Shown here in pieces: positions 151-20,735 of a stretch of DNA of 20,735 nucleotides. A program made the translations under genes and the position numbers. Source of the stretch: a virus. The notes under the pieces are model-generated. The model searched no databases and was not told where the DNA came from. It saw only the letters and a program-made list of their open reading frames with translations. Numbering within the stretch: position 1 is the stretch's first letter; every line of letters begins with the position of its first letter. The stretch spans positions 1 through 20,735 of the IMG/VR virus record IMGVR_UViG_3300036759_000101; one strand, written 5' to 3'.

Positions 151-304
151 GGTCCCATGCTTGGCCGGGGGTGATGGGGGCGTGGCAGATGCGGCATTCG
201 ATGGTGGTGCCGGTGGTCCAGGCGGTGGTGAGGATTGCTTGGTGGTGGGTGCGGAGTCGGCGCCATGCGGTGGTGGATCCGTGGGGGGTGAGTGCGCTGG
301 TCAC
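1..304 (-). CDS. HNH endonuclease, 5' part (gene continues across the circular joint)
   Basis: This is the N-terminal 101 codons of a 117-aa HNH nuclease; reading from base 1 into base 20585 restores the complete gene, which ends at 20536. Visible residues are Cys37-x2-Cys40, His54 in DLGH, Asn66 in TNL, and His71/Cys74-Asn75 in a PEHAxCN block, which is a treble-clef HNH core. The GTG start at 304 is preceded by GAAGG (314-310) and overlaps the stop of the upstream 68-aa gene as GTGA. HNH proteins beside terminase genes are known in HK97-like phages to assist terminase cleavage at cos sites; that role is inferred here from position. Confidence 0.9.
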   Translation of the reverse strand, partial: MTSALTPHGSTTAWRRLRTHHQAILTTAWTTGTTIECRICHAPITPGQAWDLGHATPRARGGDDTNLAPEHAHCNRAKDANTRHIPTFTHPDFSETGAANS

Positions 305-507
305 GGTTGCCTTCGGGGCGGCCTAGCAGCTGGGCCGTCGACTAGGGTGAATGTTCCGCGGCCGTGCTGCCACCGTCGCGCTAGCCGTAGGTGGTCTCTT
401 GCGGCACGCCAGGGCCATGCTCGGTGCGATCTCCATCCGCATGTGCACTCGGTTCGTCCGATGTCGGGGATGAATCTGATCTCGTGATGTGCCCAGTTTC
501 GGCCCAT
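301..507 (-). CDS. small Cys/Trp-motif protein, first gene of late operon
   Basis: A 68-aa protein starting at ATG 507. Residues 20-26 contain a TECTCGW block (CxC followed by Gly-Trp), and a His pair lies near the N terminus. I remember a similar short CTCGW pattern in small actinobacterial and actinophage proteins of unknown function; it may bind metal. Its stop overlaps the HNH GTG as GTGA (304-301), the junction style used throughout this genome, and that is the main reason to accept it. No good Shine-Dalgarno precedes the ATG. No recognisable small terminase gene exists, so this gene beside HNH and terminase could be an unusual packaging partner, but that is speculation. Confidence 0.6.
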   Translation of the reverse strand: MGRNWAHHEIRFIPDIGRTECTCGWRSHRAWPWRAARDHLRLARRWQHGRGTFTLVDGPAARPPRRQP

Positions 508-543
508 AGCGTTAGTGGAAGCAATCCTTTCAAGGTGAGTATT

Positions 544-591
544 CGTCCGTCAGTCCGTCCGTCCGTCCGTCCGTGCACGCACGCACGCATG
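544..591. repeat. tetranucleotide tandem repeats (CGTC)n and (CACG)n
   Basis: Bases 544-571 are seven CGTC-type units with the third changed to AGTC. After a CGTG unit, 576-587 are three CACG units and then CATG. Such short tandem repeats are rare in compact phage genomes and can change length by slippage. The segment is outside any accepted gene. Confidence 0.85.
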
Positions 592-630
592 CATTGAGCA
601 TGTGCTTGAGCACGCATTGAGCATGTGCTT
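591..630. repeat. 17-bp direct repeat pair (iteron-like)
   Basis: GCATTGAGCATGTGCTT occurs at 591-607 and again at 614-630, a period of 23 bases with a 6-base spacer. Each copy contains AGCATGTGCT, a near-palindrome with AGCA and TGCT arms. Repeats of this size next to a replication gene resemble initiator-binding iterons or operators. Confidence 0.85.
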
Positions 631-640
631 CGGGCATGCA

Positions 641-1048
641 TCAGTCATCGTCCCGATGCCACCGTGCGCGGGCAGCGTGACGCGCACGCTCGGACCGGTC
701 GCCGGTGTCGTTATCCCACCGCGCTTGCGCCGCACGCCGCGCCTTGTTCGACCGGCGTTCCTGCGCTTCGATACCGTCCTGCTGGTACTCGGCCCAGCCG
801 TGGATATCCCACCCGCCCTCACGCTTGTGCCACAGTTCGACGTCGACCAGCGCTGCCGCGTCGGCCGGGCGGCCACCGAGGATCCGCAGCATCCGGGACG
901 GGACGAACCCGCCGAGCTCGTGCTGTCCGCAGTAGGCGAGCCCGGCCATGTACAGCCACACCGCGCCGAGGCGGCGCCCGTCGTAGAGTTCGACGAACTT
1001 CTCGTTGGTGTACCAGTTGGTGTCTAGCCGGACCCACGGCAGCGGCAT
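641..1048 (-). CDS. replisome organiser-like protein (DnaD/phage replication initiator N-terminal type)
   Basis: A 135-aa protein starting at ATG 1048, with CAGGAGC six bases upstream. The N terminus (WVRLDTNWYTNEKF, then AVWLYMAGLAYCG and FVP) and the later LW-x-GWDIHGWAEYQ block match what I remember of phage replisome organisers, whose winged-helix domain recognises the origin and recruits the host helicase. The C terminus is basic and has two copies of an AR-x-AA-x-ARW motif (about residues 102-130), which could contact DNA. It is the last gene of the leftward operon and ends exactly where the iteron-like repeats begin, which supports a replication role. It is shorter than many initiators, so it may need a partner. 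Confidence 0.6.
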   Translation of the reverse strand: MPLPWVRLDTNWYTNEKFVELYDGRRLGAVWLYMAGLAYCGQHELGGFVPSRMLRILGGRPADAAALVDVELWHKREGGWDIHGWAEYQQDGIEAQERRSNKARRAAQARWDNDTGDRSERARHAARARWHRDDD

Positions 1049-1063
1049 CGCGTCAGCTCCTGT

Positions 1064-1408
1064 TCATGGCGCGGCTTCGTCGGGTGTCCACGGTTGGCAT
1101 GGCCAGGTTTGGGACCGGTCCACGTGCCAGCCGACGATGCGCCGCCACCGGATGCCGCTGCTGTCCCGGTCGGCGAGGATCGCCTCACCCTGCAACCGGT
1201 GCGCGAGTTGGAACAGGGCGTTCCACCCGGCGCCGCTGATCGGTTTGTCCCCGCCCTTGCACTGCACCAGCAGCACCTGCAGGGGTTTCAACGCGACCAG
1301 GTCGACCGGGGTTTTGCTGCCGCGGGTTTGGACGCACCAGTACCCGTCGTCTGTCAACTGTTGCTTGACGCGTTTCTCGAAGTAGTCGCCGCGCTGATAG
1401 GCGGTCAC
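1064..1408 (-). CDS. Hjc-like Holliday junction resolvase / PD-(D/E)XK endonuclease
   Basis: A 114-aa protein starting at GTG 1408, which overlaps the upstream stop as GTGA. The core reads G7-x3-E11, then RGSK at 29-32, D36 in PVDLV, and Q49-C-K51 in LLVQCKGG. This E...S...D...QxK order is the catalytic arrangement of archaeal Hjc-type resolvases in the PD-(D/E)XK superfamily. The role expected for the family is cleaving four-way junctions or branched DNA before packaging. It sits with the exonuclease and RecT-like genes, which fits recombination. The assignment of fold is firm; resolvase versus another structure-specific nuclease is less sure. Confidence 0.78.
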   Translation of the reverse strand: MTAYQRGDYFEKRVKQQLTDDGYWCVQTRGSKTPVDLVALKPLQVLLVQCKGGDKPISGAGWNALFQLAHRLQGEAILADRDSSGIRWRRIVGWHVDRSQTWPCQPWTPDEAAP

Positions 1409-4794: not shown

Positions 4795-4973
4795 GCGTCT
4801 GCCTTCGTCTCGGCGATCAACTTTTCGACCGCATCGGGGTCAAACATGTAGGCACCGCGCAGGCCGGGCGTCTTGATAACGGGTGTGAGCCGGCCGGCGT
4901 CGACGAGACGGTGGACAGTGCGGACGTCTTTGCCGAGGCGGCGTGCGACCTCAGCTGTGGAGATGGGGTCCAT
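4791..4973 (-). CDS. excisionase/MerR-like helix-turn-helix protein
   Basis: A 60-aa protein, MDPISTAEVARRLGKDVRTV followed by HRLVDAGRLTPVIK, then a short wing with GAYMFDPDAVEKLI. This is the layout of MerR-like HTH excisionase-type DNA-binding domains. ATG 4973 is chosen over the TTG at 4982 because the family starts close to the first helix and because the -10 box ends at 4982. It heads the leftward operon and lies behind an operator-like inverted repeat, so it is a good candidate for a Cro/Xis-like regulator of its own promoter. No integrase is present, so an excision role is doubtful. Confidence 0.82.
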   Translation of the reverse strand: MDPISTAEVARRLGKDVRTVHRLVDAGRLTPVIKTPGLRGAYMFDPDAVEKLIAETKADA

Positions 4974-4981
4974 GCGGCCCA

Positions 4982-5010
4982 ACCTTAGGCATTTGACGAA
5001 GATTAGTCAA
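4982..5010 (-). promoter_or_regulatory. leftward early promoter with operator-like inverted repeat
   Basis: On the minus strand TTGACT (5010-5005) is separated by 17 bases from TAAGGT (4987-4982), a sigma-70-type pair. The -10 ends eight bases before ATG 4973, giving a leaderless or nearly leaderless transcript. The -35 lies in an inverted repeat, TTGAC-N8-GTCAA (5010-4993), a likely operator. Confidence 0.7.
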
Positions 5011-5046
5011 CCGCCGTGTCCAGGTCGATTAATAACTCGCGGTGAG

Positions 5047-5075
5047 TTGCCCAATACGCGGGTAATGACTAACGT
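5047..5075 (+). promoter_or_regulatory. rightward promoter for the ParB-like operon
   Basis: TTGCCC (5047-5052), 17 bases, TAACGT (5070-5075). Predicted transcription would begin near 5082 and leave a leader of about 90 bases containing a strong hairpin. It is divergent from the early leftward promoter, so the two form a switch-like control region. ACGTCGA occurs at 5076-5082 and 5090-5096 just downstream. Confidence 0.55.
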
Positions 5076-5104
5076 ACGTCGAAGTTCGCACGTCGAGTGC
5101 GGGC

Positions 5105-5141
5105 GGGCCTGGTCACGAGATTGCGGCTCCCGACCAGGCCC
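5105..5141 (+). promoter_or_regulatory. 10-bp-arm hairpin in the leader of the ParB-like gene
   Basis: GGGCCTGGTC (5105-5114) pairs perfectly with GACCAGGCCC (5132-5141) across a 17-base loop. It lies between the predicted start site and the ribosome-binding site (GAGAGGA, 5158-5164). It could be an attenuator, an RNA protein-binding element, or a DNA palindrome bound by the ParB-like protein. GTCACGAGA occurs at 5112-5120, overlapping the hairpin, and again at 5153-5161, overlapping the ribosome-binding site. Confidence 0.7.
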
Positions 5142-5172
5142 TAACGACAACCGTCACGAGAGGACGGTCACC

Positions 5173-6117
5173 GTGACCACGATTATCCGACCCATTTCCG
5201 ATCCGAAGGTCGAAGCGATCCTTCGAGAGTGGAATCTCCGATTCGAGCTGCTCGAAGCGGTCGAGATCGGCTCGATCATCCAGGTGTCCGAGCAACAGGC
5301 TCGAGCGGTCGCGCACCGCGCGATCCCAGCCAACGTCGAGCGCTACTACGAGCACATGAAGAACGGGGCGCAGTTCCCGCCGATCGTGCTGCGCGAGCCG
5401 CGGATCATGCTCGACGGCAACACTCGTGTCCAGGCGGCGACCAAATTGGGGATGCAGTTTTTCCCTGCCTACGTGGTGCACGACATCACGACGACTGATA
5501 TGGCCCGCGCGTTGAGCGCAGCGATCAACCAGTTGAACGGGCAGCCGCTCACCGTCGAAGAGGCGCAGGAGATCGCTATCGAAATGCTTTACGGCGAGCT
5601 CAAGTTCTCAGTCGGCACTGTTGCACGCTATGTCGGCCGTTCGGGCGCGCAGATCACCCGTTGGCGCAAGCAGGCTGAGGTTATGCGGCATGCGGAGCGG
5701 CTCGGGATCGAAGAGCAGGCTACGAGGATCTCGGCAACGCAGCGGGAGAAGCTCGCGGGCGTGCAGTTCGATGAGCCGTTCCGCCGGCTGGTCGAAGTCG
5801 TGTCGGATTCCAAGCCGCCGAATGCGGAGCTGAGCACGGTCGTCAAGGACATCGAAAACGCGTCGAGTGAACACGAAGCGGTCAGCCTGGTCGAAGCTGC
5901 GGCGATGCAGTGGCGTCCGACCGGGCCGAGCGGGCGAGTTATCCGCAACGAGAAGGCGCGGCGGGCCCGGATGCTGGCGCCGCAGCTGCTGAACCTGCGT
6001 GCTGCGGATCTCTTCGACCCGGAGAAAGGCGTCGACGACCGGATCATGTGGGAACGGCTGCGCGATCACTGCGACGACGTGCTGCGCGCGTTCATCACGC
6101 ATGGCATCCGGTCGTGA
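5173..6117 (+). CDS. ParB-like nuclease-domain DNA-binding protein
   Basis: A 314-aa protein starting at GTG 5173, with GAGAGGA eight bases upstream. The N-terminal ParB/sulfiredoxin-like domain (about 28-105) includes FPPIVL and a DGNTRVQAATKLG block at 81-93 in the place of the ParB GxxR motif. A NQLNGQPLTVEEAQEIA helix and an HTH (about 145-167, FSVGTVARYVGRSGAQITRW) follow. In the family this fold binds parS-like DNA and may hydrolyse CTP. No ParA ATPase is seen, so a stand-alone regulator or a maintenance factor using a host ParA are the main options. The C-terminal half is not recognised. It leads the rightward operon, opposite the HTH gene. Confidence 0.8.
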   Translation: MTTIIRPISDPKVEAILREWNLRFELLEAVEIGSIIQVSEQQARAVAHRAIPANVERYYEHMKNGAQFPPIVLREPRIMLDGNTRVQAATKLGMQFFPAYVVHDITTTDMARALSAAINQLNGQPLTVEEAQEIAIEMLYGELKFSVGTVARYVGRSGAQITRWRKQAEVMRHAERLGIEEQATRISATQREKLAGVQFDEPFRRLVEVVSDSKPPNAELSTVVKDIENASSEHEAVSLVEAAAMQWRPTGPSGRVIRNEKARRARMLAPQLLNLRAADLFDPEKGVDDRIMWERLRDHCDDVLRAFITHGIRS

Positions 6118-20536: not shown

Positions 20537-20735
20537 CACCAGTCCCGATCGGCGGGGTTCGCGCGAAAAACGGACAAAGCGCGGGGTGAATTCGCGGCGC
20601 CGGTTTCGGAAAAATCGGGGTGCGTAAATGTCGGAATGTGTCGCGTGTTCGCGTCCTTCGCGCGGTTACACGTCGCGTGTTCGGGTGCGAGGTTCGTGTC
20701 GTCGCCGCCTCGGGCGCGGGGGGTGGCGTGGCCGA
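20536..20735 (-). CDS. HNH endonuclease, 3' part, second copy at the window end
   Basis: This is the same gene as at 1-304, seen from the other side of the joint, and it carries the C-terminal part of the protein, ending in ADRDW. Its stop codon overlaps the terminase ATG as TGATG (20538-20534), implying coupled translation. Within the duplicated 150 bases it differs at five positions: His73 becomes Thr by a full three-base codon change, and there are synonymous changes in the Cys74 codon (TGC to TGT) and in the Lys78 codon (AAA to AAG). None removes a catalytic or zinc residue. The gene runs off the window edge. Confidence 0.88.
   Translation of the reverse strand, partial: GHATPRARGGDDTNLAPEHATCNRAKDANTRHIPTFTHPDFSETGAANSPRALSVFRANPADRDW
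20586..20735. repeat. terminal redundancy, right copy (matches 1-150)
   Basis: This is the right-hand copy of the 150-bp end repeat; mismatches fall at 20656, 20668, 20671, 20672 and 20673. The unit length implied by the two copies is 20,585 bp. Confidence 0.9.

Follow-up and report, generated by a model that had tools for sequence, protein, structure and literature searches.

What is the function of the dense cluster of short repeats that fills the gap behind a replication gene in a small virus genome? The window, a virus record of 20,735 bp, is probably from a small tailed phage of an actinobacterium. Its two ends (positions 1-150 and 20586-20735) share 150 bp with five differences, which cluster within the HNH gene (71-88). 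We read these end repeats as the mark of an almost complete assembly, either circular or concatemeric, that contains a variant haplotype. The gene order on the minus strand is exonuclease, RecT, a small unassigned gene (1064-1408), the replication gene referred to here as Rep, the gap, a small ORF, HNH, and terminase, the last being reached across the contig junction. A ParB-like nuclease-domain gene (4873-6117) is found in a short plus-strand block, opposite most genes. An earlier note on this DNA had the gap begin at the stop of a replisome-organiser-like gene, and had placed one small gene between the gap and the packaging genes; both statements agree with our annotation, in which the gap is bounded by the Rep stop codon (TGA, 641-643) and the small ORF (507). 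We argue below that the repeats very probably belong to a conserved, Rep-linked, iteron-type phage replication origin.

The natural reading direction of the element is the minus strand, the same as that of Rep, and in this direction the Rep stop is followed by two 21-nt iterons, a GTGC array, eight tetranucleotides and an AT-rich core (Table 1). The CGTC-type units (from position 543 or 544), the CACG units and the two repeats listed in the earlier note are all present, and the 23-base period given for the two repeats is correct, whereas their stated length of 17 bp covers only the core of 21-nt copies that differ by one mismatch. The minus-strand reading, the division of the tract into ACGN words, and the extension of the module to about position 517 with an AT-rich core were beyond the view of that note. 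The sequence after the last word, ACGA, reads ATACTCACCTTGAAAGG, with an AT fraction of 0.58 as compared to 0.31 genome-wide. The repeats are beyond chance; the perfect period-4 runs of 22 nt and 15 nt in the gap outrank all others in the 20.7-kb window, of which the longest has 11 nt, and ACGNACGNACGNACTNACGNA, with at most one mismatch allowed, has a single site in the window, the tract itself, and is found in 0 of 100 shuffles.

Table 1. Features of the Rep-linked element and its surroundings in the window
Feature	Position	Strand	Remarks
Rep, short (135 aa) actinophage replication-initiation-like gene	641..1048	-	predicted winged helix and long C-terminal helix
Iteron 1, AAGCACATGCTCAATGCGTGC	610..630	-	direct repeats above shuffles, p=0.016
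Iteron 2, AAGCACATGCTCAATGCATGC	587..607	-	23 nt from iteron 1
GTGC array (plus-strand CACG-type/GCAC units)	575..592 (GCAC units 575-593)	-	between iterons and tetranucleotide tract; overlaps end of iteron 2
Tetranucleotide array, ACGGx5 ACTG ACGG ACGA (8 words; plus-strand CGTC array)	543..574	-	conserved in relatives
AT-rich core, ATACTCACCTTGA..., candidate unwinding region	517..542	-	AT 0.58 versus 0.31 genome-wide
Putative packaging end (cos), ~8-nt gap CCCGCGCT between contig ends	20577..20586	-	not part of origin; ~540 bp from tract

The product of the gene next to the element matches a PHROG family of replication initiation proteins (E 4.5e-26), and homologues are present in 190 phage records. 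Three of 16 members of the Rep family show a weak match to Phage_rep_org_N (best 8e-4), while a sequence search of the PDB with Rep returned no match. An AlphaFold model (mean pLDDT 78.7) predicts a winged-helix-like domain followed by a long C-terminal helix. Foldseek found no significant match to this model, and VIA-align listed Orc/Cdc6 winged helices (Z up to 7.0) and the initiator N-domains 4pql, 4pt7, 4pta and 5kbj (Z 6.0-6.4), which we take to be RepA_N proteins; all of these scores are below 8 and are not decisive, such that the resemblance to initiators of iteron-type origins is too weak to assign Rep to a RepA_N or DnaD-like replisome-organiser family.

To follow the element across viruses, loci were gathered with Rep protein queries from annotated phages and from IMG/VR, with the exception of two of the 84 loci, namely the window itself and prophiGD91-2 (L004), which was found by a DNA match yet carries Rep. 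For one IMG/VR query (A2), the Rep proteins used came from contigs that carry the tract, which leaves this arm partly dependent on the tract; the second IMG/VR query (A3) and the annotated-phage arm are independent of it. Among the 84 distinct short-Rep loci, 78 show a match to the core on the Rep strand at a distance of 27-470 nt past the Rep stop, marginal in one or two loci (E 0.06-0.09), and 61 have an AC-phased 4-nt tract. A period-4 score of at least 8 was reached by 47 of 84 downstream regions, as compared to 0 of 83 upstream regions and 1% of shuffles. When Rep proteins are clustered at 70% identity, in a set that includes loci fetched by pattern, the core is found in 48 of 53 clusters and is missing from five. 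At the largest distances between Rep and core, an additional reading frame separates the two in the cases inspected (L087 and L004). A blastn search of the 60-nt element against phages gave two weak matches. The match at 15.8 kb of prophiGD91-2 (H61) was at first read as chance because it lies within an annotated gene; the core HMM, however, places a core 360 nt behind Rep, so that this match is apparently genuine, with one more frame separating Rep and core.

The association was also examined in the reverse direction. A degenerate pattern, ACGNACGNACGNACTNACGNAGAA, matched 45 IMG/VR sites, and at 41 of these a Rep frame on the same strand ends 24-504 nt upstream. Three of the remaining four are on contigs with only 59, 113 and 299 nt of upstream sequence, and the fourth has a Rep frame that extends beyond the start of the tract. 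A stricter core pattern had no matches in 394 actinomycete genomes, where Rep is mostly of a longer form and a single weak core match was seen (E 0.06). A pattern scan of a genome collection gave 21 matches across unrelated bacteria, and no Rep was found in the four actinobacterial genomes checked among them; a search of plasmids with Rep also gave no match. As judged from these comparisons of sequence, Rep and the element are in near-perfect two-way linkage, with the fixed order of Rep stop, iterons, ACGN array and AT-rich core. In the M. smegmatis phages Taheera and Tweety, Rep and the element are located within 34.8-35.5 kb and 47.2-47.8 kb, respectively. The search of relatives for conserved repeats that the earlier note had proposed thus found the repeats kept, the opposite of the outcome named there as refuting.

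Two observations on existing annotations were made at these loci. Hypothetical genes cover the origin-like array in L006 (5363-5686, Budski gp94), L085 (1357-1677, Holliday gp90) and L090 (1353-1577, Piper2020 gp89), and these gene calls are possibly spurious. In Mycobacterium phage RitVan (OQ201593, 35196-35896), genes in the place of Rep and the origin bear labels that set them apart from relatives (tail assembly chaperone, RNA polymerase subunit, HNH endonuclease), a probable misannotation.

The surroundings of the array are suggestive of a replication origin. The locus combines an adjacent initiator gene, direct repeats, and an AT-rich region, a candidate for unwinding, next to the iterons, all of which are expected of an iteron-type origin. 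Above-shuffle iterons are present in 38 of 60 loci. Loci with similar Rep proteins also have similar iterons (Mantel r 0.53, 0 of 500), a correlation explained in part by shared ancestry because core similarity follows that of Rep as well (0.60). Across 60 loci the AT fraction reaches 0.56-0.57 over the 40 nt that follow the array, as compared to 0.32-0.47 elsewhere. DnaA boxes number 16 in 58 kb downstream as compared to three in 119 kb upstream, and seven versus two when one representative per cluster is counted (p=0.0018); in the window itself no DnaA box is found near the element, even with one mismatch. Neither the window nor phage Taheera has a switch in GC skew at the element, and this measure is uninformative. 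The iterons, the relatively AT-rich core and the downstream enrichment of DnaA boxes would fit a theta-type origin, and of the explanations offered in the earlier note it is the replication origin that gains strong support from the conserved Rep-linked module.

The same position and composition could also be explained by a regulatory site, either an operator or a promoter region, by which Rep would control its own operon or the genes downstream, with replication starting elsewhere. The next gene on the Rep strand begins downstream of the element, a stretch resembling a ribosome-binding site follows the core in some relatives, and both the AT enrichment and the short distance to Rep would fit. 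We regard this explanation as improbable, however, as an operator needs neither an enrichment of DnaA boxes nor an AT-rich core, and no promoter or terminator-like site was identified in window positions 300-1200. In addition, the close relative L002, whose Rep is 73% identical in amino acid sequence (77% for the gene), has different genes downstream, which argues that the element stays with Rep. The array and core of the two viruses are identical at 47 of 47 bases, the odd ACTG word included, within flanks of about 55% identity that cannot be aligned; the GTGC array is present in the window and not in L002.

A structured RNA, acting as a riboregulator or replication primer and transcribed from the conserved part, would have precedent in the RNA-based origins described for some mycobacteriophage prophages (PMC7157519). 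It is nevertheless quite unlikely here, as an alignment of 61 sequences gave no consensus fold on either strand, and Rfam yielded no credible family, its only match being below threshold and ascribed to chance.

Less probable again is a packaging site (cos or terminase binding), one of the options in the earlier note, even though the HNH and terminase genes are nearby in the window. The ends of independent contigs converge on a single homologous position between these two genes, which is an unannotated likely cos end. L008, with an identical terminase, and L009 (74%) both begin TTGTCCGTTTTT, corresponding to window base 20577 on the minus strand, and L012 and L016 begin CTGTCCATT at the homologous place, just before terminase. 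The start of the window is 8 nt from that of L008 and L009, leaving CCCGCGCT between, as expected if library preparation had removed a 3' single-stranded cos extension. The packaging end would thus be located some 540 bp from the tract, with HNH and terminase on either side. In Taheera, a linear phage of 41.1 kb, the element is found near 35.3 kb, roughly 5.7 kb from the genome end and far from the terminase genes. The cos reading was rejected, as the element coincides with genome ends in neither case.

The slippage-prone microsatellite, whether a phase-variation switch (the earlier note had suggested a slippage-prone switch) or a neutral repeat, is suggested by the nearly perfect CGTC repeats of the window but is scarcely tenable, given the 47 identical nucleotides, interrupting word included, in a relative with 77% identity, a fourth base that is variable, both inside one locus and from locus to locus, with no loss of phase, and no link to a promoter.

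In 61 loci the array consists of 3-9 words, each starting with AC (by definition of the count), with G as the third base in 84% of words and a fourth base that is G in 46%, T in 35%, A in 11% and C in 8%. Typically, several ACGN words precede one ACTN and a further ACGN, after which come AGAA and a CTACTCACCTT-like core. The array is not a simple slippage microsatellite, because its words are ACGN with a free fourth base. At several loci the 4-nt tract is replaced by units of 5 or 6 nt (ACAGA in L149, CCAGA in L186, ACCCGT in L094), so the array is constrained as a short-period series, usually of 4 nt, and a strict 4-bp reading is not universal. Tandem units of 5 or 6 nt are seen in the distant or variant Rep loci L014, L094, L186, L190, L204 and L149.

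If the element is a replication origin, the short Rep encoded alongside would bind the iterons and then assemble across the adjacent short-tandem array of ACGN words, which would form a ladder of repeated binding steps between the iterons and the unwinding site. Assembly of Rep would open the AT-rich core behind the array, and the host replication machinery would be loaded at the opened core, with DnaA possibly helping in those relatives that have a downstream DnaA box. We infer the origin identity, the binding by Rep and the ladder role of the array from sequence comparison. A more tentative proposal, possible but below even chances in our estimation, is that the ACGN array represents a new kind of initiator ladder, in which each short word, of 4 nt or, in diverged lineages, 5-6 nt, would take up one protein unit. 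Such a ladder might be entered from lineage-specific iterons, lead to the unwinding site, and be common to a large class of actinobacteriophages, and its layout might be analogous to the GAGY repeats of AAV or the DnaA-trios of oriC, with an independent origin.

Among known systems, the iteron-type origins of plasmids and phages (P1 RepA, lambda ori, and staphylococcal RepA_N initiators) share the succession of initiator gene, direct repeats and AT-rich region, as well as DnaA boxes in some members. They differ in that, in the phages studied here, a conserved ACGN array is inserted between the iterons and the AT-rich core. In the AAV Rep-binding element, one Rep monomer is bound per four nucleotides of GAGY tetranucleotide repeats (PMC2809752), and both systems have tandem 4-nt words with three fixed bases and one degenerate base (ACGN in 61 loci). 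However, the Rep of AAV, an initiator that nicks DNA and has a helicase domain, acts at the hairpin ends of a linear genome, whereas the phage Rep is short, is predicted to be a winged-helix protein, and has no family match to a nicking nuclease of the AAV Rep type, so the resemblance is one of layout only. At oriC, short-period repeats (DnaA-trios) are found beside initiator sites and the unwinding element (PMC10201434), and the order of double-strand initiator sites, short-period repeats and unwinding region is the same; the oriC units are 3 nt and are bound as a single strand by DnaA, whereas the phage units are mostly 4 nt, G+C-rich, and beside Rep iterons.

The prophage origins of cluster A mycobacteriophages (Miko, of the RepA type, and RedRock, of the RNA type; Wetzel et al. 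2020, PMC7157519) are likewise actinophage replication regions near a rep gene. The cluster A RepA is 320-350 aa and different from the short Rep, and in the passages of that paper on cluster A origins no repeats are identified at the expected ori and the ACGN array is not mentioned. A short-tandem array in an iteron-type phage origin seems to be previously undescribed, as no description of an ACGN array was found in open-access titles, abstracts and searched passages.

Mycobacteriophage replication systems are described in PMC7157519 as not well characterised, and the module reported here is recognisable from sequence in dozens of lineages of actinobacterial viruses. The short-word array raises the question of which protein reads the 4-nt period. 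The module is carried by cultured phages of Mycobacterium smegmatis, Gordonia and Rhodococcus, with variant units in those of Arthrobacter and Propionibacterium, which makes the question of origin function directly testable, and it could supply plasmid origins for actinobacteria.
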